DNA of 21,810 bases, from contig JADGIF010000087.1 of the NCBI GenBank assembly GCA_018985225.1, positions 1 to 21,810 on the forward strand, given 5' to 3'. Positions 1,913 through 21,810 of this stretch are shown in pieces. This DNA comes from Amoeboradix gromovi. Taxonomy: Eukaryota; Sanchytriomycota; Sanchytriomycetes; Sanchytriales; Sanchytriaceae. Within the stretch, counting starts at the first letter, position 1. The number at the start of each line of letters is the position of its first letter. A model generated the notes under the pieces. It was not told the DNA's origin, searched no databases, and saw only the letters and a list, made by a program, of their open reading frames with translations. The translations under genes and the position numbers were made by a program.

Positions 1913-3395
1913 ATGTCCATAAAGGAATTCTCCAACATCTTTTGCTATAGTGCAGAAGGGTTCCCAAGTACAGACTCAGGCACACTAAGAATTGCGCCTG
2001 CAGGATTAGGTTGGAAAAGCAAAACTGTAATTACAATCGCGACAGATGAGATTGTCAAAGCACAATGGATGCGATCTTTTAGAGGATACCAGTTTCGTGT
2101 ATTTTGCAAGAATGATCCATTTAAATCAAAAAGTCCATTTGTTAAATTTGATGGGTTTGATAGGAACGACTTAGATGATTTGAATTCTGCAATTAAGCAG
2201 CATTTTAAACAATCTATTGAAATAAAAGAATGGAATGTTAAAGGCCAGAATTGGGGAAAGGCAGAACTAACGGGTTCTCATTTGAACTTTGTGTCTGGTA
2301 AACCTGTTTTTGAAATCCCATATGGATGCATCACTAATGCCAATCTTGCGAATAAGAACGAAGTAGCTCTTGATATAGAGCCCTATGATCAAGGTGATCA
2401 GCTTGTGGATATTAGAATGTTTGTTCCTGGCATGTCCGCAGGCAACGATGAACAAACTGCTGCAGAGTATCTTCACAATAGCGTCAAGATGAAGGCTGAT
2501 CTTCAAGCCGTTTCTGGAAAGACTGTGATGTCTTTCAATGAACTTCCGTTTCTTACACCTCGCGGTAGATATGAAATGGATATTTATGAAGATTTTATCC
2601 GTCTTCGCGGCAAAACTTATGATTTTAAAATTGATTTCCGAAGCATCATTAAGATATTCAGTTTACAAAAGCCTGATGATAACAACCACCTAGTGGTTAT
2701 TGCTCTTGATCCTCCTGTAAGCCAAGGTCAAACGAGATACCCATTTCTGGTATTAAATTTTAGCTCTGAGGATGAAGAAGAAATCCAGATTAACGCCAAT
2801 GACACATTTAAATCTAGATACGGTCTTCCCGCCTCTTACGAAAACCCTCTTTATTTTACAATCACTGATGTAATTTCAAAGATATCAGGAAGGGAAGCTA
2901 TCTTCAGTGGAGCTTTTCAGAGGTATTTTATATTAATATAGTCATTATAGGAAGGGCGGAGTTAAGTGCTCCTCCAAGGCTACCGAAGGGTTCTTGTACT
3001 TATTAGAAAATGCTTTTTTATTTATTCCAAAGAATTCGTTATTCATTCCTTATAATGATGTCTCTCATGTTAGCTTTTCCCGTGTAAGTGCTAGTGGCTC
3101 AAATGCTAGTCGCACTTTTGATATGAACCTTAATTTGAAATCTGGCCAAACCGTCTTATTTTCAAACATTGGAAGAGAAGAACATGCCAATATCAACAAA
3201 TTCCTACAAACTAAACAAATCGAGACTATCGAAGAAGAAGAAGCTGCTCAGCAGTATACGATTGACGAGGTTGTCCCAATGGATTTGGATGATGATGATG
3301 ATGATGAGAGCTCCCCTGATGAAGATTTTAATCCAAACGCTGTTGATCCTGAAGAATTAGAAGTCAGCGATGTTGAGCCTGAGACCGATGGGTAA
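1913..3395 (+). CDS. POB3: FACT complex subunit POB3 (SSRP1 family), spliced
   Basis: This encodes the Pob3/SSRP1 subunit of FACT, the nuclear histone chaperone that partners Spt16 during transcription and replication. Exons 1913-2922 and 2942-3395 give 487 residues. The first ATG of the conserved part is at 1913, followed by a family-typical N-terminus with GLGWK at 31-35. A GKPVFEIPY segment and NEVALDI follow in the SSRP1 structure-recognition region. Exon 2 supplies the second half of the middle domain. The tail, from about 450, is acidic (six consecutive Asp, then Glu-rich). There is no HMG box, as in fungal Pob3 and unlike animal or plant SSRP1. An AATAAA lies four bases after the stop. 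An alternative acceptor nine bases downstream would also keep frame. Identity is very secure. Confidence 0.96.
2923..2941 (+). other. 19-nt spliceosomal intron in POB3
   Basis: Sequence GTATTTTATATTAATATAG. The upstream frame stops inside or just after it, and the downstream frame is shifted. Removing exactly these 19 bases restores a protein whose spacing matches SSRP1 relatives (FQ, seven residues, then VKCS). It carries a TTAAT branch-like motif ending four bases before the intron end. Confidence 0.85.
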
Positions 3396-3689
3396 TTTAA
3401 TAAAGTACTTATCGTGACTGTATGTTCTATATCGCTCATCTTTTTAACTTTACAACACCTCGATAATGTTTTTATCAACCGTAAACGGCTCAAGTCGTCT
3501 TATCCTCAATCTTTCAATTCCAAGCCAGTAGACATAGAATATGTTCTTCCTTTACCTCTGTCTGATGTCTCTCAGCACCCAGAAAGAGAATTCTATATAA
3601 TCTACAAGGCACTCTGGAGCCCTTTGATATTCCAGATATTCCTCAAAAGAGGTTACCATCTAATAAACACAGTGGAACTGGCCATTTAC
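3396..3689. other. Intergenic region after POB3
   Basis: Only the POB3 poly(A)-type hexamer (AATAAA at 3399-3404) can be supported. Two overlapping frames are open for 75-93 codons, one of them from 3566 into the repeat that follows. Neither has a recognisable domain nor a convincing start, and they may be retroelement debris. Confidence 0.4.
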
Positions 3690-3870
3690 AGTTAGATAGA
3701 CATCATATAGTAGCAAGAAATATAAACCTCGAAATTTATGCATCCGTATTCAAATATACCTCAGGGTACTGCAAGCGTGAGGAGCAGCTGTGATGGATCG
3801 ACTAGCATTGTTAGAGTGTCTGCGGATGTTATTAATTTTCTCTTAAACTGAGGACTTTTAAGGAGTTAAA
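3690..3870 (+). repeat. Retroelement-derived repeat fragment B
   Basis: This aligns with 12120-12290 and 21465-21640. Shared landmarks are CATCATAT with AGCAAG, CATCC then TATTC, CTCAGGGT, GCAAGCGTGAG, a small hairpin around 3802-3814, and GGACTTTTAA. In copy C the left part reads as the end of a copia-like pol. The same frame here gives RHHIVARN against RDHMAARD. The proposed LTR begins near TG at 3770. It is the most diverged of the copies. Confidence 0.55.
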
Positions 3871-4027
3871 GAATATGAATTTACATTTAACATTGTTTAT
3901 TATCTTGTTTCCCAAGTATCAAATGTCATCCAGAAAGTATTTGTCAGCACATCTTCCTTTGCTACTCGCTCTAAAAGCCCTTCTAGTTTTTTCTTTAATC
4001 CTATTAAGTGTGAGTTTTGAGATGGAT

Positions 4028-6226
4028 CTACGTTAATACAAATCTACCAAAATATAGGTTAAACACCTCCCACTGCATAACTACCTCTCTATTATTAATC
4101 GATACTTCTATCCAGGTCCCCTCTTGTTTTCCGTAGAGTAAATGTGCCATACCAATTGCTGACTCGCCTTGTGAATTTATCAAAAACGGATCAGCTCCCA
4201 TCCACAATAACACTTGTATGCATTCCAAGTGTCCATTTTGTATTGCCTCGTGTAATGGGGTATATTGATCTACATTGTCTTGGTCATTTATGTTGATATA
4301 TTGCAACGCTAACAAACACATATAAGAGTTACCATGTCTCGCAGCAACATGCAGCAGTGTGCTACCAGTTTCTGTTCTCATTTCTGCATTTGCATTGTAT
4401 TTCAGTAGCACAGCATTAACTCCTACATTTTGATGGCATAATAATATGAACAGCGAATGCTTTACAGTGCTAGTATTGTTTCTAAGCAGCAATAACATTA
4501 TCGACCAGTTATTGCGTGCACAGGCAATGTCTATTGGTAGTACTTGAGAGTGTATGTTAGGAGCTCTAATAACCCTCACTTTTGGACTATTTGATGACAC
4601 GTTGAGATTGGGATTAGATGCACTACCACCGGTGTTTTTCATGTATGTACTCAGGTAGTGGCAGTTACTCTGGGCCAAAATGATTCGGGGTATTCTCTTA
4701 ATTGCGTAACAGCCAGTATGTTCTTTAGTAGGTACGCTAAATTTGAATTCATCAGGACTGGCCTTAAAAGTTTCGTTCCACTTAGAGGTACTTGCACTAT
4801 AGTCTACTGTACATTTGTTACTAGTCTTAAAATACTGCCATCTAAAACCATCTGCAGATTTTACTAAAGGATCAACAAACTCCAAGTGATTACCCAAATT
4901 GGCAATTAAAGCATAAAGTCCTAGTCTAATCCCTCTCATTTGATCCGCGCCACTAGTTAGCAACAAAGCAACACATTCAGGCGATGTTAGATTACTGCAG
5001 CAACAAGCGGCTAGCAATGGAGTAACATCGTACCAGCTGTGATCTATTTTAGGCTGCTTAGATTGAAGCCACTCTATTAGCACTTCGTTTAGCCCTGCAA
5101 ATGCACTAGCGATAATTGTTGATGGTTTCTTGATAGATGTATCCATAGGCATAAAACAGCTACGTTCAGTATACTGTACAGAAATCGGGTCATTGATAAC
5201 TAGCTTGTTGATTATCTTTTCTTCACAATAAACATCAAAAGGTATAGAATATGACATTACTGGTTTATCTTTTTTGCTCTTTTTAGCCGGAGATATTGAA
5301 TTAGTAACAGTTGTGCCATGTAGAGTGTTGACTGAATTATCGCTTTCATTAGACATCTTTTTATCTTGATTCTTTTTAACCCATTTAAGAAGAGAGGTGC
5401 CACTAACTGATTTCTTGTGGGATTTCTTGATGCTGTAAGTTATTTCATTATTAGCGAACAAGTACTCATTGCTAGAAGCACTATGATTAGCCTCCTTCAG
5501 ATCCATAGAATAGTGTGATTTTGACAAAGTAGGAGGGACTAGAAATGAACCAGGACCAAATTCAAAAACAGTCCTTTCAATTACTTTTGACACGAAGTCA
5601 TAAATAGCAAAAGGAATTTCTGGTTCATTAGAAGGAGGACCAATATTTAGCCATCTACTTCTGTCAGTTTTTAAAATGTTGGTAAACAGCAACAAACACA
5701 TTATAGATAGATCCGAAAATGCTAACAAATCTTGTTCATAAGAGGATATAGGAAAGTCGTCATACAAAGAGGGCCAGTGTTTTTGCATTGGTATCGTGTT
5801 GATTACAATTTTACCATCTTTGGAGTTCAATAATAACTCCTGATCGTACACTCTCTCACTTATCTTAATTTGATGGCTGGTCTCATGGCTAACTGTGGAT
5901 ATGGTCATCTTTTTGGGTAACGGAAGTACTGGAGGAGAAGTTTGGATTCTATCAACCAAAAATAGTAAGTTCTTATGAATGTTAATATTTCTCTTTCGTT
6001 GGTGCTTCTTGTACGTAAATAGTTTCTTCTTCAGTTTAGCGGAAGGAACATCTGTCCGAAAATTAGGCTTACCAAGAACAGTTGGGAAATGGATTGAATA
6101 TAATGGAATCTTCCGTTTCTTTAAATATTCGCTGCTGAAATTAATTAAAATTATATCTTGCGTATGATGTAGACAGTTATTGCTTAGCACTTGCTCAGCC
6201 CAATTCAATTGTGAGTATTTAAGCAT
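4028..6226 (-). CDS. Ankyrin-repeat protein of unknown function (732 aa)
   Basis: This is an uninterrupted frame starting at ATG (6226), with no intron needed. The N-terminal 130 residues are basic (runs of Lys and Arg). A hydrophobic stretch around 165-185 (DLLAFSDLSIMCLLLFTNIL) looks like buried helix rather than a clear membrane anchor. Residues about 245-330 are Ser/Lys-rich and probably disordered. Ankyrin-type units appear near 390-425, then as a C-terminal block about 565-715. Clear signatures there are GSTLLHVAARHGN and YTPLHEAIQNGHLECIQVLLWMGADP. Ankyrin repeats bind proteins, so a scaffold or adaptor role is likely, but I do not recognise the family. It diverges from the succinyl-CoA ligase gene across 271 bp. 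The real-gene call is firm; the function is open. Confidence 0.85.
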   Translation of the reverse strand: MLKYSQLNWAEQVLSNNCLHHTQDIILINFSSEYLKKRKIPLYSIHFPTVLGKPNFRTDVPSAKLKKKLFTYKKHQRKRNINIHKNLLFLVDRIQTSPPVLPLPKKMTISTVSHETSHQIKISERVYDQELLLNSKDGKIVINTIPMQKHWPSLYDDFPISSYEQDLLAFSDLSIMCLLLFTNILKTDRSRWLNIGPPSNEPEIPFAIYDFVSKVIERTVFEFGPGSFLVPPTLSKSHYSMDLKEANHSASSNEYLFANNEITYSIKKSHKKSVSGTSLLKWVKKNQDKKMSNESDNSVNTLHGTTVTNSISPAKKSKKDKPVMSYSIPFDVYCEEKIINKLVINDPISVQYTERSCFMPMDTSIKKPSTIIASAFAGLNEVLIEWLQSKQPKIDHSWYDVTPLLAACCCSNLTSPECVALLLTSGADQMRGIRLGLYALIANLGNHLEFVDPLVKSADGFRWQYFKTSNKCTVDYSASTSKWNETFKASPDEFKFSVPTKEHTGCYAIKRIPRIILAQSNCHYLSTYMKNTGGSASNPNLNVSSNSPKVRVIRAPNIHSQVLPIDIACARNNWSIMLLLLRNNTSTVKHSLFILLCHQNVGVNAVLLKYNANAEMRTETGSTLLHVAARHGNSYMCLLALQYININDQDNVDQYTPLHEAIQNGHLECIQVLLWMGADPFLINSQGESAIGMAHLLYGKQEGTWIEVSINNREVVMQWEVFNLYFGRFVLT

Positions 6227-6497
6227 TTGAAATTCGTAAGATTCTTGGTGTTTCGAAATTATTAACCACTAATTTTAAATTCCTATGCAACACATAAGCT
6301 AAAACCAATTGATTGCAGAGTCAGATAACGTGCTCTTATTTATAAGATGTAATGGGTATTCCAGGAGTGTTATCTTAATTTTTTTAATTAAGTAAATCTG
6401 GAAAACTAAAATAAAGCTCTGGTAGTTCACATTGAACACTTCAAATTATTTTGAAATATTTTAATGGTGTTGTAATTTCAAGATAATCCGTGTAACA
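6227..6497. promoter_or_regulatory. Shared divergent promoter region
   Basis: This 271-bp, very AT-rich spacer lies head-to-head between the ankyrin gene and the succinyl-CoA ligase gene, so both promoters should sit here. It includes a 7-bp inverted repeat (CTTAATT at 6374-6380 and AATTAAG at 6386-6392) around a T-tract. No specific factor site can be named. Confidence 0.5.
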
Positions 6498-7761
6498 ATG
6501 CTTCGTTGCGCAAAAAGGTTTTTAAACTTGCATGAGTATCAGTCTATGCAAATCTTGAGCGACTTTAAAATTGCCATTCCCAAAGGTAAGGTAGCCTCTA
6601 CTCCTGAGGAGGCCGCTCAGTTTTCAAAAGAGTTCCCAAGTGCTGTAATTAAAGCTCAGGTCTTGGCAGGTGGTCGCGGAAAAGGCCATTTTGATTCTGG
6701 ACTGCAAGGCGGTGTCCAGCTCACCAGCAACTCTGCTCAAATTAAGGAATACGCTCAGAAAATGCTTGGTCATCGACTGATTACGAAGCAAACGGGTGCC
6801 CAAGGTAAACCATGTAACAAAGTATTTATTGTAGAGAAACTGCAACTAAAGAAAGAATATTACTTTGCTATTCTAAATGATCGTAAGCACCAAGGCCCCG
6901 TCTTGATTGCGAGTTCTGAGGGAGGTATGGATATTGAGCATGTTGCAGCCACTAATCCAAAAGCTATTGTGACTCAGCCTATAAACATCCACAATGGACT
7001 CACAAACTCGATTGCCAGAGATGTTGCAACTAAAATTGGATTTTCTGGTGATGCCATTGACCAGGCAGTTGGAATATTTCAAAAGCTTTACAAGGTGTTT
7101 ACAGAGAAGGATTGTACCATGATAGAAATCAATCCACTAGCTGAGCTTACTAACGGCAAAGTACTTTGCATGGATGCGAAACTAGGATTTGATGATAACG
7201 CAGAATTTAGACAGGAATCTATTTTCAAACAACGTGACTTTTCACAAGAGGATACTAGAGAGGTAGAAGCATCCAAGTACCTTTTAAACTATATTGGACT
7301 AGACGGACATGTAGGGTGCCTTGTTAATGGTGCGGGTTTAGCAATGGCGACAATGGATGTTTTGAAACTCAATGGCGGCGATCCTGCTAATTTCTTGGAT
7401 GTTGGTGGCTCTGCAAGTACAAAGCAGGTTACAGCTGCATTTAAGATTATCTCTTCAGATGAAAGAGTAGATGCCATCTTTGTAAATATCTTTGGAGGTA
7501 TTCAGTAATAATATAGGGATAATGAAATGCGACGTGATTGCTGAAGGTATCATTACTGCTTGCAAAACTCTTGATTTAAAGATTCCTCTAATTGTTAGAT
7601 TGCAAGGTACTAATGTGGAAAAGGCAAAAAAAATGATTGCATCATCGCAACTTCCTATTATTAGTGAAGACGACTTGGACAAGGCAGCAAATAAAGCTGT
7701 TGTTTTTTCAAAGATATATTCATTAGCCAAGTCAGTAGGAGTTAACATTAAAGTGGAATAA
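6498..7761 (+). CDS. LSC2: Succinyl-CoA ligase beta subunit, mitochondrial, spliced
   Basis: This is the beta subunit of succinyl-CoA synthetase, the TCA-cycle enzyme that couples succinyl-CoA cleavage to NTP formation with an alpha subunit in the mitochondrial matrix. Exons 6498-7497 and 7517-7761 give 414 residues. An ATP-grasp domain fills the first half: [11 protein letters not shown] at 58-68 and the metal-binding region EINP at 210-213 with MDAK at 225-228. The CoA-ligase half has the [10 protein letters not shown] and DVGG motifs, and NIFGGIMKCD spans the splice junction. Several positions resemble animal GTP-type subunits, but nucleotide choice cannot be settled here. Only about ten residues precede the conserved LHEYQS, so the targeting presequence is very short. 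The stop codon lies within an AATAAA. Identity is certain. Confidence 0.96.
7498..7516 (+). other. 19-nt spliceosomal intron in succinyl-CoA ligase gene
   Basis: Sequence GTATTCAGTAATAATATAG. It contains an in-frame TAA if retained. Its removal joins NIFGG to [11 protein letters not shown], a strongly conserved motif of the family, so the boundaries are fixed to the base. TAAT lies at intron bases 12-15, exactly as in the other 19-nt introns. Confidence 0.95.
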
Positions 7762-7802
7762 ATAATTTTTAACCATCTATAAAGAGGCCATTGGCTTGAT
7801 AA

Positions 7803-9373
7803 ATGGAATCGAAAAAGAATTCACTATCTTCTCTGATGCTTAATAGTTGGGACTCGAACGAAGATACAAATGCTAAAAATAAAAAGGTTGATAATGATGG
7901 GGAAGAGATATTAGATTTTTTAAAGAAAAATCTTGATAACAAACATAGCAGCAATGAAAGTTTGTTGGGATTTCTTGAAGATAACAAGCAGAGAAGAGTC
8001 CCTGAAAACCCCAAATTAAAGACCAACGAGAATATTAATACTAGTCTATTAGATTTACTAGATTCTAGGGACAAGAAGAACCAGCAAGACAAGAAAGATG
8101 GCGAGAGGCCGCCTTTAAGGGATAAGAATAATCAGGAGCAAATTCATAAACTAGAAGACAAGATCAGTGCTGATGACTTGCTAAAAATAGTGGAATCTTC
8201 AATACCTATCTCCGAAAAAGACCTGCCTAAAAATGACAAATCAAAATTAACTGCAACTAAAAACATCGAGATAAGAAAAATTGTAGAAGACGCTCTAGAC
8301 TCTAAATTTGGTTTATTGGTGACTGATTTTCAGAAAAAGTTTGACTTTGTTGAGGAGATTCAATCTAATCTTAACAGCGTCGTAAATGAATTAAACACTG
8401 AAAATAACAAGCGAAAGATGTATCAGCAGGATCTGGTAAATATCAAGGATTCGATCTCAGATGCCGGAGAGAAGATTTTGTTTGTAGTAGAAAAAACCAA
8501 TGATGCATATGAAAAAACTTGCAACTTACTAAATGGCGTTAGCGATACTAAATCGAAGGTAACTGTCTTTTAATTTAGCTGGAATCATCCTCCTCTAAAA
8601 TTGATTTTGCCCTCAAAGCTTTCGCATCAGACATTTCAACAAATTTAAAGAGTTCTCAAAAATTGCATTCTGATGTCGAAATGTGTCTGAATTCCATTGA
8701 AGATATGAAGAGTCTAATCTGTCAGAACTCTCAAGATAGAGAGAGCTTTAGTAAAGAAAAAAGGGATTGGATGGATTTAGAAATGAAAATAAGTGACATG
8801 CTACTTGAGCAGGAAAAAAAACTTCAACTCGATAAATCAGAACTCGAACATACTTATAGTCAGAGAATTAAGGATTTAGAGGTGAAAGAAAAGAAATTGG
8901 TAGTAAAAGATGGGATTTTTAAAGCCGAGGTAGACAGAAACTGGGCAGAACAGCAATCCCTAAGTTGTCTAAAAGAAGAAATATTGGATATCAAAAGGGA
9001 TCTAGAGAAACAGAGAAGAGAGCTTGCTATGGAAAAATCATCACTTCATTCAGAAAAGCAAATTTTTGATTCAGAAAAGACTCAGTTTGCGAGTTTATAT
9101 AAGGAAATCTGTGAAAACAGGGACTTCCTTAGCAAAGAAAGGAAAAGACTTAAAGATTGGACCGAAAGTAACAAAACACAAGAGGACCAGCTGCTATTAA
9201 CATTGGAAGAGATTCGGGAAGAAAAGGAATCACTTTCTGAATTAAAGAAAGAGCTTATGACCATTCCTTTAAAACCATACCGAAGAAAGAATAATTCTGA
9301 TATTGTAATGAAGAGAAAACTAGCTATAAATAGGCTAGAAAGGTATAGTCACGACATTCAGCAGAAACTATAG
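7803..9373 (+). CDS. Coiled-coil protein with repeated LLxLL-type motifs, spliced
   Basis: Exons 7803-8558 and 8579-9373 give 516 residues. The start ATG is 41 bp after the ligase stop. The first 130 residues are polar and probably disordered, with four short hydrophobic motifs in similar settings (ILDFL 36-40, LLGFL 54-58, LLDLL 82-86, LLKIV 126-130), suggesting repeated docking peptides. From about residue 155 to the end it is almost pure heptad-like coiled coil rich in Lys and Glu, ending in a basic stretch. No enzyme domain is seen. The layout recalls ciliary or centrosomal coiled-coil proteins such as FBF1, or vesicle tethers, but coiled coils mimic each other and I would not assign it. 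It is clearly a real gene, since both halves share one character across the splice. Confidence 0.8.
8559..8578 (+). other. 20-nt spliceosomal intron in coiled-coil gene
   Basis: Sequence GTAACTGTCTTTTAATTTAG. It introduces a stop and frameshift if kept. Removal joins two long open frames of the same coiled-coil composition between codons. TTAAT sits at the same distance from the acceptor as in the 19-nt introns; the extra base lies on the donor side. There is no sharply conserved protein motif across the junction, so the boundaries rest on frame and motif. Confidence 0.85.
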
Positions 9374-9498
9374 TTCCTAACAAGTTTTTAATATAAATAG
9401 ATTGAAAGTAATAAATAACTCTAACTAGTTAAATCAATTTATAGGTAAGTTTCATTTTTGCGTTGAAATACGTGACTCACCCAAAACCTTTTACCAAT

Positions 9499-10566
9499 AT
9501 GAACTTTTTAGATTTATTATACTCTATACCCATTCTGGTTGTTTATGCTTCTATTCAGATTTCTACAATATTAAGCCCTATGAACTGTTTGGATGATAGA
9601 CCGAGCTCGAGCTTATTTCTATTTATAGCAGACCCGCAGATTGAGGGAATGTACAAACTAAATCAAGGATGGATTGATGCACTTGACTTATATGTCAATG
9701 ACATCTCAATGTCATTGGTATACAGATTGGCGTATTTTCAGTATCAACCAGAATATGTGGTGATTTTAGGAGATCTTTTTAGCTTTCAGCATACTCAGAA
9801 CCCGGAGTTCGAATGGAGATTAAAGCGGTACAAAAGAATGTTCCCTATTTATAATGAGCATTTTTATAATTTGTCGGGAAATCATGATATTGGGTATGGC
9901 TGGGATATGCGAGAATGGATGGTAAAGAGATATGAGTCAGCTTTTGGTCAAACAAACTTCATTGTTAAGACTGCTGAATTTGAAATGATATTTCTTAATT
10001 CGATGGCTCTGGATGGTACATTTGAAGATTCTATTTTCAACAACACATGGAATTTTGTAAAATCCTTACCTGAAAAAGAAAAGCCAAGGTTGTTGTTTAT
10101 GCATATACCATTGTATCCTAGTAACGTCACTTACTGTGAATCGAATAGCTATCGAGAATCAAACGGGTTGTTCCATTTCCAAAACTACTTAACAAAAGAC
10201 TCATCATTATCACTTCTAAATCTTTTAAGCCCAGATTTCGTTATATCCGGGCATAATCACGATGGCTGCTTAAGCGAAATACATAGAAGCCCAGATTATA
10301 AAGTTGAAGAATTTAAGTCTAGAGAACTAAACGGCACTCTGAGAAATACAACTTTTGCGCTTACTGTTAGATCCGTTATGGGTTTATATGATGGTGGGTT
10401 TGCTTTTCTTTCGGTGAGAGGCAGCAAATTTCATTACAAAGAGTGTATATCAGTCAATTTTTTGACGGTCAGAATATTTCTAGTTATTAATTTCATAATA
10501 TTGATTAGTTTTTTGATACTAATTTGCGCCTTTCGCCTTAGTAAATCTTTTAAAGGAGTAAAATAA
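9499..10566 (+). CDS. TED1/CDC1/PGAP5-like metallophosphoesterase (ER/Golgi membrane)
   Basis: This is a calcineurin-like phosphoesterase of the Cdc1/Ted1/PGAP5 group. Studied members remove ethanolamine phosphate from GPI anchors in the ER. The 355-residue protein starts at the first ATG (9499); the frame runs 12 codons further up without another ATG. A hydrophobic signal or anchor covers residues about 5-25. Metal-site motifs appear in order: ADPQ (44-47), GDLF (91-94), GNHD (127-130), H202 in MHIPLY, and GHNHDG (251-256), so the two-metal centre looks intact. A second membrane helix is at about 323-345, leaving a short basic tail. Residues 99-125 fit the insert seen in this family. Which paralogue (Ted1 or Cdc1) cannot be decided. 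It lies 35 bp before the VDAC start. Confidence 0.9.
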   Translation: MNFLDLLYSIPILVVYASIQISTILSPMNCLDDRPSSSLFLFIADPQIEGMYKLNQGWIDALDLYVNDISMSLVYRLAYFQYQPEYVVILGDLFSFQHTQNPEFEWRLKRYKRMFPIYNEHFYNLSGNHDIGYGWDMREWMVKRYESAFGQTNFIVKTAEFEMIFLNSMALDGTFEDSIFNNTWNFVKSLPEKEKPRLLFMHIPLYPSNVTYCESNSYRESNGLFHFQNYLTKDSSLSLLNLLSPDFVISGHNHDGCLSEIHRSPDYKVEEFKSRELNGTLRNTTFALTVRSVMGLYDGGFAFLSVRGSKFHYKECISVNFLTVRIFLVINFIILISFLILICAFRLSKSFKGVK

Positions 10567-10601
10567 TTAAGAAGTGTTGATTCACAATTTATTTTTGTAA
10601 C

Positions 10602-11472
10602 ATGGCAGCTAGTTTCGCAGACATTGGGAAAAGCATTAATGACTTGTTGAGCAAAGACTTGCCAACAGCTATAAAGTTTGATTTCAAGAGCGTCCCGACT
10701 GACAAGAGAGCAGAATTCAAGGTCTCAGGTGCAAAAGACAACAAAGGTAATTTAACAGCGAAGTTGGAACAGACCTACAAAAACGCAGATGGCTTATCAA
10801 TTACTCACTCTTGGTCTACCGATAACAAAATCGGTCTAGACGTTGATTTGAGTGATTCGTTTACAAAGGGCCTTAAATTAGGTGCTGCATCAGGTTTTAA
10901 TACAAACGCAGGAATAGATGCTTTCAAGTTGTCTGCCACTTTAAAGAAGGAGGAATTTCATGTAGTTTTATTTAATTTAGGTCAAGACTACAATTGACGC
11001 TTTCAAGGGCCCAACAGTAGGTTTGGCTGCGAGCGCTGCTATTTCTGCTATTGAAGGCTTGATTGTTGGCACTGACGTCTCTTTTGACACAACCTCTACT
11101 GCTATCGACAAGTACAATTTTGCTATTGGTTATGCTCATCCAGATTATTATGTTGGTGTATTTTCAACCAACCAATTGCAAGATGTATCTGTAGGATACT
11201 ACCACAAAATCAGCTCTGACTTAGAAGCAGGGGCTAAGGCGTTGTGGAAAAGAACTGCTGGCGTTTTGGGAGGAATTGAGTTTGCAACAAAGTACAAATT
11301 GGATGATGTCAATGTTTTGAAGACTAAGATTGACCAAGCAGGAAAATTAGGACTGGGCTTTACTCACCAGTTGAAAGACGGATTCAAGGTTACTGTGGGT
11401 GGTAGTTTCGACACAACTAAGTTGGATGGCGGCTCACATTCAGTTGGCTTGTCATTCAATTTAGAAGCTTGA
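10602..11472 (+). CDS. POR1: Mitochondrial porin VDAC, spliced
   Basis: This is the voltage-dependent anion channel, a 19-strand beta barrel of the mitochondrial outer membrane that passes metabolites such as ATP and ADP. Exons 10602-10961 and 10981-11472 give 283 residues, the usual porin length. The N-terminus (ASFADIGKSINDLLSKDLP) forms the expected amphipathic helix. After it, alternating hydrophobic-polar strands continue to the end, including KFDFKS, FKGPTVGL and a C-terminal KLGLGFTHQL, then HSVGLSFNLEA, as in VDAC. The sequence lacks a cleavable presequence, as expected. The leader carries TGTAAC just before ATG, similar to the ligase gene. Codons look rich in A/T-ending choices with many G-starting ones, fitting high expression. 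Confidence 0.93.
10962..10980 (+). other. 19-nt spliceosomal intron in VDAC gene
   Basis: Sequence GTAGTTTTATTTAATTTAG. Without removal the frame ends at 10997. With removal, exons join between codons to give a continuous 283-residue barrel with FKGPTVGL soon after the junction. TTAAT is placed as in the other introns. Confidence 0.93.
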
Positions 11473-11797
11473 GTAAAAAATTGAATTTTAGATCTTTTGG
11501 TTTCTTGCTTTAACTGTTATTTACACTCTACGCTTAATGTAGATTTAAAATCCTTCCATTTTCGAAGAAGTTCCGCGTTCTTAAACTTTAGACAACTTGT
11601 TACATATCATATTGGTACAATTCTACCTATTTTGCTTTTGAATTGCTCGATTAACTCTCGATGATCTTAATGATGAGACACTTTGCCGTCTGCAAAAATA
11701 TTCTTCACTGTCTCTGCTATGTTTTTACGGATAAACCCTCGCTGTAATAAAACAGCTTGACTATTTTCTTGAATAAATCATTTATCGCGAATTTGTA
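11473..11797. other. Intergenic region after VDAC
   Basis: Nothing recognisable. No open frame of note, no RNA gene and no clear repeat is seen. The VDAC 3' end must lie here, though no AATAAA directly follows its stop; one occurs farther on, at 11774. Confidence 0.35.
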
Positions 11798-11950
11798 CGC
11801 ATTTTTGTATAATTTCAAGGCTTTTCCAGATTTTTTTAATAGCCTAAATACTCGAAATTATTTTCGCAAATGGTAAGTCAATTCTAAAGAAATAACTAAT
11901 AGGTACAGCATACATTCGTCTCAGACTGATAAGCTGGTCCAAACACGAAA

Positions 11951-12137
11951 ATTCGATGCCATGTACAATATAAGGCACTCTAAAGAAAACCAAGTTGGAG
12001 AGCTATTCATGTACATGGACCAGATGGCATCAAGGAACAAATTCGATGCCATGTACGAGGTATGGTACTTTAAAGAAAACCAACTTAGAAACCTGAACCT
12101 GTACAAAGTGTCGTTTGAAGATAGAGACCATATGGCA
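11951..12137 (+). repeat. Direct tandem duplication, about 90 bp, inside pol tail
   Basis: ATTCGATGCCATGTAC occurs at 11951 and again at 12041, and AAAGAAAACCAA follows each at the same distance. Both units read in the same frame, KFDAMY followed by KENQ. Their ends also match (ATGGCATCAAGG against ATGGCAGCAAGG), with the first unit shorter inside. The second unit fits the pol consensus better, so the first is an old tandem duplicate. Confidence 0.8.
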
Positions 12138-12219
12138 GCAAGGGACATATACATCAATTATCTGCATCCTCATTCAATCCCGCCTAAGGGTAGTGCAAGC
12201 GTGAGCAATCACTGCAACG

Positions 12220-12241
12220 GAGAAACTAGCATTAGTTTCTC
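12220..12241 (+). repeat. 9-bp perfect hairpin in LTR-like repeat
   Basis: GAGAAACTA and TAGTTTCTC pair perfectly around a GCAT loop. The equivalent place in the copy at the window end (21569-21583) holds ACTAGC-GCT-GCTAGT, and in fragment B (3802-3814) CTAGC-ATT-GTTAG, so a stem survives with altered sequence. Confidence 0.7.
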
Positions 12242-12310
12242 TGTGGAAATTCTCGATTTTCTCGGAAATCAGGACTTTTAACGAGTACTAATTTGAGCCC
12301 AATCTGTGGA

Positions 12311-12509
12311 CCAATCATAAGAAGAGAGAATGTGAAGAAACCAGGTCATTTAGCAATTCTGACGCACAGAAAGCCCTTTGACAACTGCAAAGAAGATCCG
12401 GTAAAAGATCTGATACGTTTAAAAACAACCTACTTAGCCTAGAGAACCTAAATTTATTGAAGAGGTGTCATTTTACAACACCATTAGGTCAGAAACAGTT
12501 TCAACTATA
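12311..12509. promoter_or_regulatory. Upstream region of the 627-aa gene
   Basis: This is about 200 bp between the truncated repeat and the first ATG at 12510. The coding frame is open back to 12465 but without an ATG. The region presumably holds the promoter. No specific motif is recognised. Confidence 0.35.
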
Positions 12510-14393
12510 ATGGATCAAATATTTCAAGATACATTTTCAATTATAGCAGAACTACAAACTATAGCATCAGAAAAAGGTTCAAAAACCTTTAAAAATGCAT
12601 ATGTTGGATCGGATGGACAGACAGAGTTTAAGAACGAATATGCCGCAACAGACACGGCTACCGAGAGAAAAATACCGATTATTTTGAGTATGGGGAATCT
12701 TAGAATGTCTGCAAGAGGATCAATTGAAAACTTTAACAGCCCTGAATCTCTTAAAATTGAAAATGAACAAACTAGACTAAAGAAGATCAACCCCCCAGAA
12801 GTTTTAATTCGAAAATTAGATTCTATGATTATGGACAGTCCGATCAAGAGCGCGGAAGATTACAATAATGACCCAAAATTTGAGGTAATTATTTCAGAAA
12901 ACAAGGATTTGCAGTCGGGGAACTTGAAAAAGTCCAAGTCTTCTAGTTTAGATGAGTTGAAGAAACTCAGTTTGCGAAAGATTAAAGGCACATTCATGTC
13001 AAATGTGAAGTCGCCACTGAAAGCTCAGGTCGAGCAAAAAAGCCGAAATCAAAAAATTAATCGTTCTGACACGCTGGTTATAGCAAACCCTACCCTGTCT
13101 AACCTTTCAGGTAATATCCTATTGTCCAGGGATCCAACACATATGAATAACATAAACATAGATGCAGAGAGAGATAAAAGCTTTAAAGTCCCAGAAACTG
13201 ATACAACGGTAAGTTCAGTTGATATGCAGGCGCACGCTCGGAAAACTGAACTACTTAGTCCTTCAAAAACACCTAAACTTACTGAGTTAATGATTCAACA
13301 GTTCGAGGATCAGAAAAACCTAATTCATAACCGTCGAATGACTGACTACAAAGGCCCACAGTACCCGTGGAACAATTTGTTTGACCTAGAACCACAACAC
13401 TTCATAGGTGATATTGACAAATATATAAAGTACATAACACAGTACATCGCTTCACCGCAGTTAACGACGAAAAAGTCAGATATTGATGTAAAAAAGCCAT
13501 ATCAAGGATTTTGGTTTTTGTTAAACATATGCAAATTCCCTGCAGAGGCTTTTCCAATAAGACTTTTAACAACAAAAGACATAAACCCGGAGATTAAAAG
13601 ACACCTACTCAAGGATAATGCGGTCTATACATCGTTTAACTTTCTGCTAACCAAAATTGGACCTTTTTTACCTAATAGAGAGACGTGGACATGGATTTGT
13701 TATGCAATTCCTGTACAACCGAGTCACGGATTCGATATAGATACAATCTTAAGTGACCCCTTGCCATTTATAGTAGCTGCGAAGGAATTCAACTTGCCGG
13801 AAATGAAAGATTTATATAAGCTGCTAGACCTAAATGGCAGCAGTTTCGGATTAATAAGCTACATCACTTTGGATATATCTGTCTTTGATATAAAGCATGC
13901 GTATTATCCTCTGGTGCATGACTTCATAGAAGCTAACGTTTATTATTGGATGAACAAAGTATGGCTTCCAATCTTGAAACTTAAACATGAAAAATGGCTC
14001 GATGGATTTTGTGATGAGATTACCAAAGTAGCGATCCCATATATAATTCACAGATTTTTTAGAGTTATAAACTCTAGGTACGGACTGCTGTTTCTTAAAA
14101 ACATCATATTTAACTTTTGCATCAACCCTACATACAATACCTCAAAAACTGCCGTCCCTGATATGACAGAGGGAAATAAAAAGAAACTGAATTCGGCTAT
14201 AGAAAAGTTGCTAAGATCTAGTATGACTTCCAATTACATACCTAAACTTAATGATAGCAGTTTTACTTTTAAACTTGCGTCACAAGAGATCACCGATATT
14301 GTTAAAAACTTTAATTTCATTAAGTACAGTAGACTAGTCGAAACCTCCTTGGTAATAGAAACACTGGCATTGCAACATTTTTATGATCAATAG
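12510..14393 (+). CDS. Unrecognised 627-aa protein with helical C-terminal domain
   Basis: The protein is read from the first ATG (12510). The N-terminal half, to about residue 270, is polar, rich in Ser, Lys and Asn with scattered KSPLK and LSPSKTPK sites, and is probably disordered and phosphorylated. From about 280 (YPWNNLFDLEP) the rest is compact and rich in aromatics. It has many predicted helices (FWFLLNICKFP, TWTWICYAIPV, YYPLVHDFIEANVYYWMNKVW) and looks like one large helical domain ending near the C-terminus. I see no enzyme motif or known domain signature. No intron is needed. Its stop is 12 bp from the end of the convergent tRNA synthetase gene. Length and composition make it a secure gene with unknown function. 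Confidence 0.82.
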   Translation: MDQIFQDTFSIIAELQTIASEKGSKTFKNAYVGSDGQTEFKNEYAATDTATERKIPIILSMGNLRMSARGSIENFNSPESLKIENEQTRLKKINPPEVLIRKLDSMIMDSPIKSAEDYNNDPKFEVIISENKDLQSGNLKKSKSSSLDELKKLSLRKIKGTFMSNVKSPLKAQVEQKSRNQKINRSDTLVIANPTLSNLSGNILLSRDPTHMNNINIDAERDKSFKVPETDTTVSSVDMQAHARKTELLSPSKTPKLTELMIQQFEDQKNLIHNRRMTDYKGPQYPWNNLFDLEPQHFIGDIDKYIKYITQYIASPQLTTKKSDIDVKKPYQGFWFLLNICKFPAEAFPIRLLTTKDINPEIKRHLLKDNAVYTSFNFLLTKIGPFLPNRETWTWICYAIPVQPSHGFDIDTILSDPLPFIVAAKEFNLPEMKDLYKLLDLNGSSFGLISYITLDISVFDIKHAYYPLVHDFIEANVYYWMNKVWLPILKLKHEKWLDGFCDEITKVAIPYIIHRFFRVINSRYGLLFLKNIIFNFCINPTYNTSKTAVPDMTEGNKKKLNSAIEKLLRSSMTSNYIPKLNDSSFTFKLASQEITDIVKNFNFIKYSRLVETSLVIETLALQHFYDQ

Positions 14394-14405
14394 ACTTATT
14401 TTGTT

Positions 14406-16152
14406 TTACTTTTTTTTCTTTTTTGCTTTCATTTCGCCGCTTGCCAGGTCTGACTTTGAGGCCAACTTCTTTTTCTTTCCATCTGGGATAGAAATCAGTT
14501 TAATAATACGATCCCCAGTTTTGTAGCCTAGCATATCATTTACCAATTCACCTACAAAATGCACAATGAAGTTTCCCTTTCTTTCTAGTTGCAACTTGTC
14601 TCCAATTTTTAAATTTTTAAATTCAAATACACCCACAGCACTTGTCTTAGTTAGTTTAAAATACCAAAAATTGAGTCTTTTCTGAGAGAATATCTTCGAT
14701 ATTGTCATTTTCTTCTGGCTTAGGCTTGTTTATTAAATAATCAAAATCAGTCAAAACTAGGTTTTCCAGCTGATACTCTGAAGATTTAGCAAGCCAAGTC
14801 AACTTCTTTGTTTTCTTATAGTCACCTCCCAGGTTTATTCGACCTTTTAATTTGATTATCGAGTTATTGTCCTTAACAATCTCTAGAATTTTAACGTTAC
14901 CCCAATTCATCAAAGTGACTTCTTCGTCTAGAACTAACAATTCAGCATCGACGTATTCAACATAAACTACATTTGTGTATGGCACCTTACGATGACCCAA
15001 AGATTCATTCTTTTGATGATTTAAATGCAGCTTAACAAATGCGGCAGTTTTGGGATTGCCCAAGTCTTCGCTAGACTCAGGATCGGCTAGTAGCTCTAAT
15101 TCAACTAAGGGCTTAGATGTTTCTAAAGCAGTTAGTCTTCCAACGTTGGCATCAATGATCTTTTTATTTAAAGACCAAATCTTGTCCCATTCGCACAAGT
15201 TGTTTTTGCTTGAGTTGCCTTGCATTAATATAAATGTTTTCAGTCCTTCCACGGTCATTCCTCTGTTAATTATCCCTTGGACAGTTGGAAATCTTGGATC
15301 AAACCAAGATTCCACTCTTTTTGTGTCAACAAACCACTGCAATTTACGCTTTGATAACAGAGTATATACAAAGTTTAGTCTAGAAAAGTCAGATATACTT
15401 ACAGGTCTTAATTCTAGCTTTTCAATAAACCACTGGTATTGAGGTGCTCTATCTCTATACTCATTCGTTCTCATAGCATGTGTTACTCCCTCAATGCTAT
15501 CGACAACAGGGCAAGCAAAGTCGTATGTGGGATACACTTTAAACTTATCTTTAGTCTGATGATGCGGTGTAGTGTTGCACCTGTAGATTACAGGATCTCT
15601 TAAACATTTGTTGTTATCATCTATAGAAATTTTAGCACGTAAACAGCAAGTCAAACCATACTCTGTGGCTCTTTTCATCTCATCAAAGTCGCTAAAATTC
15701 TTTTCCAACGACTTGTCTCGACATCTGCTAGCAATACCCTTCATTCTCTGATGCCTCATATCTTCTATCGAAGTGTCATCAACATAAGCCAGATCCAATT
15801 TTATTAGCTTCTCTGCGTAGTCGAGTAAAACTGAGAAATGATCGCTGGTGTGCGAAGTTTTGAAAGGAATAATTCCAAGAGTTTTGCAATCCTGCAAAAT
15901 GGCGTCCTCATAGTCCTGCTTTTCTTTTGTTGGATTAGTGTCATCCATTCTAATTAGTAGCTTACCGTTGTACCTTTTTGCAAAATAGTCGTTTATTAAT
16001 GCTGCCTTTACATGGCCAATATGCATATATCCACTTGGTTCCGGCGGGAAGCGAGTTACGACTTTTCCGTCCTCTGCATTTGCTAGATTAAGCTGCTTTT
16101 CAATTTCGTTATTGTACTGATCAAGACAAGTAAAATCCCATTGAGAATTCAT
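14406..16152 (-). CDS. GUS1: Glutamyl-tRNA synthetase, cytosolic type, spliced
   Basis: This charges tRNA-Glu with glutamate in the cytosol. Exons (minus strand) 16152-14665 and 14645-14406 give 575 residues from the first ATG. Class I motifs are clear: PPEPSGYMHIGH at 36-47 and LSKRK (the KMSKS equivalent) at 266-270, with YDFACPVVDSIEGVTHAMR before it. The anticodon-binding part is the beta-barrel type of eukaryotic and archaeal GluRS/GlnRS, ending in KNLKIGDKLQLERKGNFIVH in the second exon, then a Lys-rich tail. Unlike yeast and animal enzymes it has no GST-like N-terminal domain; only about 30 residues precede the catalytic core. GluRS rather than GlnRS is favoured by the overall match to Gus1. 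It is head-to-head with URA5, 24 bp apart. Confidence 0.93.
14646..14664 (-). other. 19-nt spliceosomal intron in GluRS gene
   Basis: On the coding strand it reads GTATTTTAAACTAACTAAG. Retention ends the protein two codons later. Removal joins KTQFL to TSAVGVFEFKNLKIGD, which continues the conserved C-terminal barrel. It has a textbook CTAAC branch sequence at the same place as TAAT in the others, and AAG rather than TAG at its end. Confidence 0.92.
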
Positions 16153-16176
16153 TTTGTACCAAGGAGTTCTGGGGTG
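16153..16176. promoter_or_regulatory. 24-bp head-to-head gap between GluRS and URA5 starts
   Basis: Only 24 bases separate the two divergent start codons (16152 minus, 16177 plus). Both starts are the first ATG of clearly conserved proteins. Promoters and 5' leaders must therefore overlap the neighbouring coding sequence or be extremely short. Confidence 0.75.
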
Positions 16177-16785
16177 ATGCAAAATAATTTGATTAAAGAA
16201 TGCATTGAAAACAATTGTTTATTATTCGGAGACTTCACTTTGAAGTCGGGTAAAAAGTCTTCTTTTTTTTTCAATGCCACGTTTGACAATGGAAGATTAC
16301 TCTACTTAATAGCTGAAGCCTATGCAGATCATTTATATACTATTTTGAAAGCCGATTTGAGTAACTATACTCTTTTTGGTGCTGCATATAAAGGGATTCC
16401 TTTAGTTAGTGCAATTGGTTCACTATTGTATTCAAAACACAAAATCATCTGTAACATTGTCTTCAACCGCAAGGAAAAGAAAGATCACGGTGAAGGTGGT
16501 AATTTTGTTGGTAAAATTCTATGTGATAAGCTAATCGTAATAGACGATGTACTAACAAAAGGTACTGCCCTGCATCAAGTTATTACAATGATAAAGCAAG
16601 AATTTCCAGCTGTAAAAATAGATAGGGCATTAATTCTTTTGGATAGAATGGAAGTAGTAAAATCTACAACTGCAAAGGAAATTTTAGTTAGAGAGACTGG
16701 CATAAAAATAGATTCTTTGATCTGTTTGAAAGACATTATTCAGTATCTTAAGGATACCAATAAGGACACAAATCTCTTAGAATAA
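16177..16785 (+). CDS. URA5: Orotate phosphoribosyltransferase
   Basis: This catalyses orotate plus PRPP to orotidine 5'-phosphate in de novo pyrimidine synthesis, in the cytosol. The 202 residues are a little shorter than yeast Ura5. The start is the first ATG in frame and gives a family-like N-terminus (CLLFGDFTLKSGKKSSFFFN, residues 14-33). FGAAYKGIPL at 67-76 follows, then the flexible catalytic loop FNRKEKKDHGEGG (96-108). The PRPP-binding motif VIDDVLTKGTA is at 121-131, with TKGT where TAGT is usual. It is a stand-alone transferase, not fused to OMP decarboxylase as in animals, which again points to fungi. The stop codon overlaps an AATAAA. HIBCH follows after 37 bp on the same strand. 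Confidence 0.95.
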   Translation: MQNNLIKECIENNCLLFGDFTLKSGKKSSFFFNATFDNGRLLYLIAEAYADHLYTILKADLSNYTLFGAAYKGIPLVSAIGSLLYSKHKIICNIVFNRKEKKDHGEGGNFVGKILCDKLIVIDDVLTKGTALHQVITMIKQEFPAVKIDRALILLDRMEVVKSTTAKEILVRETGIKIDSLICLKDIIQYLKDTNKDTNLLE

Positions 16786-21169: not shown

Positions 21170-21810
21170 GAGACTTTGTATATGTACATAATTTCATGAC
21201 TTTTTTATATTTTTCCAATACCTCAAGTACTCGGTATTCTATATTTTCGCAAATTGTAAATGGAAACAATGGATATAATCCTGAACATGTCAAATCTAAA
21301 GAAATAACTAATAGTTACAGTATACATTCATCGATGTTGAGGAACTGGCCCAAACATGGAATAACTAGATGTCTTTCAATGCCTAGAAAAAGATCAACGA
21401 TAAATAAACCTGTGAACCGCTAATTTAACAATTGGTATGCGATTGGTCTTGCGATATGTGCAACAGTAGATATCATATGGCAACAAGGAGTATCACATCA
21501 AGTATATACATCCTTATTCGATCACGCCTCAGGGTGGTCAAAGCGTGAGCACTCACTGTTACGGATTTACTAGCGCTGCTAGTTTCTCTGTGAAAATTCT
21601 CAATTTCCCGGAAATCAAGACTTTTAACGAGTACACTAACTACAATTTCCAATTGGGACATCAAATATAAAAACTGGACTAACTTTCTGTAACAACTTGG
21701 AACATTATTTAAGAGGCGAGTGGACATTCAGCTAGTTGCGGAGTTGACGAGTATAAAGGAAAATAAATATTCTGTACAGCTATTCTCTTACTCTTTCATC
21801 CAATCTTTAT
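21170..21810 (+). mobile_element. Decayed copia-like pol tail plus LTR (copy E)
   Basis: The left part matches 11798-11949, with TCTAAAGAAATAACTAATAG almost identical in both copies and the same frame (SKEITN, YSIHSS) open at 21199-21423. From about 21465 it matches the end of copy C. A purine-rich CAGGGTGG near 21530-21537 would mark the LTR start. The LTR then runs through the hairpin at 21569-21583, an ACTTTTAACGAG block and a TATA box (TATAAAA at 21666-21672) that also occurs in fragment A. It continues to at least 21720 and possibly beyond the window. Frameshifts and stops show it is dead. Repeat secure; element class probable. Confidence 0.6.

Follow-up and report, generated by a model that had tools for sequence, protein, structure and literature searches.

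Gene-interrupting segments of 19 to 21 nucleotides as likely spliceosomal introns in a fungus-like genome

Five genes on the 21,810-nt contig JADGIF010000087.1 (the window, by which we mean this whole stretch of DNA; contig C353 of an assembly of 6,779,989 bases in 366 contigs) are each interrupted by a segment of 19 or 20 nt, and the question is whether segments this short can be introns. From the sequence evidence set out below, we consider it very likely that they are spliceosomal introns of the ordinary U2 type whose length has shrunk to a minimum of 19 to 20 nt, some measuring 21 nt.

Candidate introns of the window and the protein at their junctions

The five segments lie exactly where the initial annotation had placed them, begin with GT, close with AG, and are 19, 19, 20, 19, and 19 nt long in map order; each breaks the reading frame, and each gene is rejoined once its segment is removed. 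The accompanying claim that conserved protein is restored in three of these genes held as well. In the succinyl-CoA ligase beta gene (SCS-beta; plus strand, exons 6498-7497 and 7517-7761), removal of intron 2 (GTATTCAGTAATAATATAG, 7498..7516, 19 nt, phase 1) gives a 15-residue stretch over the junction that aligns without gaps to four fungal orthologues. Intron 5 (GTATTTTAAACTAACTAAG, 14664-14646 on the minus strand, 19 nt, phase 0) separates exons 16152-14665 and 14645-14406 of the glutamyl-tRNA synthetase (GluRS) gene; the repaired junction, TQFL|TSAVG, aligns with four fungal orthologues, and Allomyces and Blastocladiella have TEAVG or THAVG there. In the VDAC/porin gene (plus strand, exons 10602-10961 and 10981-11472), splicing out intron 4 (GTAGTTTTATTTAATTTAG, 10962..10980, 19 nt, phase 0) yields a protein that matches the solved VDAC2 over residues 4-283. 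A Pfam domain scoring above its cut-off spans the repaired junction in all three proteins (Porin_3 in VDAC).

Intron 1 (GTATTTTATATTAATATAG, 2923..2941, plus strand, 19 nt, phase 2) lies in POB3/SSRP1 (exons 1913-2922 and 2942-3395), where two Pfam domains flank the junction and removal of 19 nt retains, in alignment, an SH common to S. pombe and Tuber; a 28-nt alternative using the next AG was ruled out because it deletes three residues. Intron 3 (GTAACTGTCTTTTAATTTAG, 8559..8578, plus strand, 20 nt, phase 0), in a coiled-coil gene with exons 7803-8558 and 8579-9373, was called from frame and motif only, and the sole Pfam match over its junction scores below cut-off. The count of five was one short: a sixth intron, GTAGATTTGTATTAACGTAG (4047-4028, minus strand, 20 nt, phase 1), was called, from motif and frame only, in an ankyrin-repeat gene, where its removal joins 41 further codons to 740 open codons; the Pfam Ank matches all precede this junction. 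As far as tested, nothing in the window requires a longer intron, as had been proposed: the two other introns offered there by a gene-finder (14 and 69 nt) are unnecessary, as the frame either just ended or was open anyway.

Length and anatomy of the candidate introns across the genome

A test free of any motif was made by joining open frames across candidate segments in 23 sequences (228,113 bases), with ten decoy dinucleotide pairs as control. Joins across 19-nt GT..AG segments numbered 10 when at least 100 open codons were required on each side, against 0-4 for the decoy pairs, and 14 against 0-8 when at least 60 were required. GT and AG are the ends of U2-type spliceosomal introns, and decoy ends gave no 19-nt peak of comparable size. 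Joins at 20 nt (8 against 0-8 at 60 codons, 2 against 0-2 at 100) fall within the decoy range, so the open-frame test alone cannot separate a 20-nt class; summed over all lengths, GT..AG joins were not enriched (410 against 259-599). Read by eye, nine of ten 19-nt joins found in this motif-free way carry T(A/T)AY-NN-AG. The pattern GTATN{4,34}TAACNTAG has 172 matches in the whole genome; among the first 100, whose lengths were tallied, 30 are of 19 nt, 13 of 20 nt, and 4 of 21 nt, and none of the other 28 lengths exceeds 5 matches (mean, 1.9).

A gene-finder given splice-site weights but no length preference was applied to the window and loci L002-L021 (221,810 bases, ~3% of the genome). Its 111 models contained 70 proposed introns, of which 29 measured 18-21 nt; two earlier runs with weak coding models had yielded few, 16 and 28 introns, with 4 and 7, respectively, at 19 nt. 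The scored set was limited to introns that score above 9 and either break the frame or carry an internal stop. This set comprises 24 introns in the same 221,810 bases: 16 of 19 nt, 7 of 20 nt, and a single one of 21 nt, a multiple of three that carries an internal stop. Lengths peak at 19 nt both here and in the whole-genome motif search; the uniformity that the initial annotation claimed stands, and its range of 19-20 nt has to be widened to 19-21 nt. The genome is intron-poor: predicted coding sequence (133,032 nt) carries 0.18 introns per kb, 19- or 20-nt introns occur in 23 of the 111 models, and the whole genome would, by crude extrapolation, have ~730 such introns.

The introns usually read GTA...YTAAY-NN-AG, an A standing five bases ahead of the intron end. 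GT and AG ends, which the search required, are found in all six window introns and all 24 scored ones. The scored introns share the donor GTA (24 of 24), with T at position 5 in 19 and at position 6 in 23; position 4 is free and the bases after it are T-rich, and donor positions 3-6 hold 5.0 bits. With L denoting intron length, A stands at L-5 in all 24, within TAAY in 22 and YTAAY in 20, preceded by T-rich bases; the second A of YTAAY is position 14 of 19 or 15 of 20. A clear intron on contig C77 starts with GTT, so GTA is not obligatory.

Junctions in the window and beyond it were examined in 27 spliced proteins, made up of the 24 scored ones and three stop-free candidates. A Pfam match above cut-off lies over the junction in 12 of the 27; as the ALAD intron is false and that of a CYFIP-like gene (18 nt) doubtful, the count falls to 10 of 24. 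In an AKT-like kinase the alignment crosses the junction without gaps, and two split kinase genes hold three introns, one of 20 nt at GTPDYI|APEVF and two of 19 nt at HRDLK|PENILL and GTAEYV(S)|PEVL. Four frame-keeping, stop-free candidates (18, 18, 21, and 24 nt) were dropped from the intron set. The ALAD candidate is coding, as the retained segment gives MVKPGYPYLDICR, a stretch also present in other ALADs. Two low scorers stand outside the 24, one of 18 nt (score 7.3) and GTATAAGTTTCTAACATAG at L006 (score 8.9), the latter probably a real intron. A third kinase match, on C26, has one internal TAA and contains a 21-nt motif hit. On C77, a stretch of ~150 bases in the kinase gene at L055 (G000:C77:30830-31060; PDK1-like by eye) contains two 19-nt introns, one of them with a GTT donor.

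The alternative that fares best is that the 19-21-nt introns are real without being the sole class, some longer ones having been missed. We give this a low but appreciable probability: the closely read part is 221,810 of 6,779,989 bases, the gene-finder does propose 38 introns longer than 25 nt, and several split kinases (such as those on C11 and C358) could contain longer ones. Against this, eight decoy weightings of the gene-finder each give more such introns (50-83) than the real one, so the 38 are no sign of a longer class. The largest kinase gap fetched, 158 nt on C300, was tried as a long intron and rejected, being a coding insert plus one 20-nt intron.

Splicing machinery, relatives, and competing explanations

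If the segments are spliceosomal introns, components of a spliceosome should be encoded in the same genome. Single copies of a U2 RNA gene (102.1 bits, GTAGTA kept) and a U6 RNA gene (65.1 bits, ACAGAGA kept) were found, together with a U1-70K N-terminus above cut-off (41.6 bits); the YTAAY branch motif is complementary to U2 GUAGUA, and the two would be putative pairing partners. A U2AF-large-like protein scores 167 bits, below the cut-off of 310; as this family also matched 2 of 14 prokaryote controls, it lacks specificity. An Isy1 match is above cut-off (34 bits), weak, and without a recognisable start. It lies inside a 1049-codon open frame (L053, G000:C339:7280-7800), far longer than the usual Isy1; a fusion and an overlooked start are both possible. 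In Stentor, the Isy1 N-terminus is described as not conserved (PMC9505925).

In the course that we propose for splicing, the branch nucleotide, the participating proteins, and the order of steps are all putative, as is excision itself. U1, and then U6, would read the GUA donor; U2 would pair with YUAAY and bulge the A; and the AG would be used at a fixed five bases past the branch A, too close to fit a polypyrimidine tract or any scanning downstream of the branch site. This would release a lariat with a 14-15-nt loop and a 5-nt tail. For the heterotrich Stentor coeruleus, with introns of 15-16 nt, PMC9505925 likewise gives a fixed branch A and the same 5-nt 3' tail, with a loop of 10-11 nt and a weak branch consensus, in contrast to the longer loop and strong consensus here; a common constraint may therefore act on the 3' spacing, with the loop free to vary.

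Proteins of the closest relatives were taken from ENA contigs and one EukProt set (P0002, P0123, P0244). A break at the same residue is seen in 9 of 10 of these proteins, across SCS-beta, POB3, and GluRS. All four SCS-beta relatives (87-89% identical) end three to five residues past NIFGG, and all three POB3 relatives (74-84%) end at FQR or five residues later; of the three GluRS relatives, two depart from the family at the same residue and the remaining one, P0124, breaks earlier. Among these proteins, three of SCS-beta and two of POB3 have their stop where a final TAG would close an intron of 20 or 19 nt; on back-translation, and assuming that the stop is TAG, the preceding M or I forces A at L-5. 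The relatives thus appear to carry introns at the same places. SCS-beta and GluRS of the EukProt set share contig NODE_138, and both genes also occur together in the window. The EukProt proteins P0002, P0123, and P0244 end at what look like unspliced introns, and further proteins of this set are probably truncated likewise. The genome-wide length peak, the shared motif, the U2 and U6 genes, and the relatives' break points support the initial annotation's view of a class of ~19-nt spliceosomal introns in a normal nuclear gene set.

Several points weigh against this conclusion. The backward control pattern has more matches in the genome than the forward one (257 versus 172), so the length peak is evidence and the total is not. 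Eight decoy weightings still yield 1-14 introns of 18-21 nt, compared with 29 for the real one, and motif purity is partly circular, as the motif weights were trained on such sequences. Searches of the genome for U1 RNA (RF00003), the U1C finger, SF1-HH, RED_N, and Cir_N (Cwc25) gave no match; four of these five profiles matched no control genome either, so the tests are weak and absence is unproven. If the relatives' ENA contigs were RNA-derived, they would be unspliced messages. Finally, excision from the message is something we infer from DNA sequence.

That last point bears on the idea that the message keeps the segments and the ribosome skips them by programmed bypassing or frameshifting. 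The segments are short, precise, and mostly frame-shifting, and they are known here from DNA alone, as this explanation would allow; GT/AG ends and a U2-complementary branch motif recur across many unrelated genes, and one of the 24, the 21-nt intron, is a multiple of three with an internal stop, needless for frameshifting. We therefore hold ribosomal skipping to be very improbable. Ciliate internally eliminated sequences (IESs) are bounded by TA repeats. Removal of the segments from DNA during development, in the manner of IESs, would also produce short and precise gene interruptions, but these have GT/AG ends and a branch motif rather than TA repeats and the best named protein matches are fungal, which leaves next to no likelihood for it. 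Assembly or sequencing errors, or decaying genes, could be suspected in a draft of 366 contigs and are just as hard to credit, since many genes share one length and motif and relatives sequenced independently break at the same points.

Other tiny introns, host lineage, and further features of the window

Of the precedents named in the initial annotation, chlorarachniophyte nucleomorphs (18-21 nt) and Stentor, a heterotrich (15-16 nt), agree with PMC10245619, which adds the mikrocytids (16-17 nt). At 19-20 nt, the introns of the present genome would rank with the shortest on record for any organism. Spliceosomal introns of the kind proposed here have the same length class and narrow spread as those of chlorarachniophyte nucleomorphs (PMC10245619; PMC2483917), 19 nt in Bigelowiella natans (PMC2483917), and all 24 scored introns fall within 18-21 nt. 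Nucleomorph introns are relatively dense, show little donor signal beyond GT(A), and lack a branch-point signature (PMC2483917), whereas the present genome is intron-poor, with fungal-type genes and a strong YTAAY. It is also not that of a nucleomorph of green-algal descent, measuring 6.78 Mb and having fungal best matches for the three proteins with named ones. Mikrocytos mackini has tiny, very uniform, sequence-conserved introns as here, 224 of them in a reduced genome (PMC10245619); it differs in being a rhizarian parasite with a very reduced spliceosome and introns two to four bases shorter. According to PMC2483917, Encephalitozoon cuniculi is an intron-poor fungal relative with similarly strong donor and branch motifs and longer introns (mean, 35.8 nt), and Yarrowia lipolytica has, as here, two bases between branch motif and AG and no polypyrimidine tract there, unlike here in introns rather long for a yeast.

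The same 2008 survey opposes short introns with weak consensus to intron-poor genomes with strong consensus (PMC2483917). Introns that are few, tiny, and strongly conserved at once are an unusual combination; mikrocytids have it too, suggesting that lineages converge on this end-point. The literature, searched by title or start of abstract, gave no fungal case of such tiny introns, subscription papers and preprints being mostly uncovered; the available text of a fungal intron survey (PMC8476143) mentions no such class, and in the sanchytrid genome paper the word intron occurs solely in a reference title. The smallest intron that a spliceosome can take is an open structural question for which the known extremes lie far from model spliceosomes, and a fungal case would move the limit nearer to yeasts, where it is testable.

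The best named matches of three window proteins are fungal. Microsporidia are not known to have mitochondrial metabolism of the kind that succinyl-CoA ligase implies here. In an SCS-beta tree, the window protein groups with its four relatives (100/100); their stem is long and takes no clear place among the fungi. GC content is 35-41% in the fetched 10-kb stretches, close to the 35-36% of sanchytrids, whose assemblies are larger (10.5-11.2 Mb); kinship with them is about as likely as not. We tentatively suggest, giving it slightly less than an even chance, that in a deep fungal clade, probably sanchytrids and relatives, 19-21-nt introns are the only class, with a rigid geometry of 13 nt from donor to branch and 5 nt from branch to end. 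If so, proteins predicted without splicing would be cut at the introns, and some reported gene losses may be artefacts; in the present genome, about one-fifth of the genes (23 of 111 models) would be truncated by predictors that accept no intron of 20 nt or less.

A scan of the window for tRNAs and Rfam families found none. A 651-codon open frame at 12438-14393 looks conserved in length, its product being without a name here. At 16152-16177 there is a very compact divergent promoter: ~24 bases lie between the start of GluRS and that of a gene on the other strand, named by eye as a stand-alone orotate phosphoribosyltransferase-like gene. A dispersed, diverged repeat lies between genes at 3727-3806, 12151-12230, and 21495-21574, with 66-91% identity among copies, and may be a decayed mobile element. 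Further repeat pairs join 48-107 with 21649-21708 and 11809-11920 with 21188-21332, placing copies near both ends of the window.

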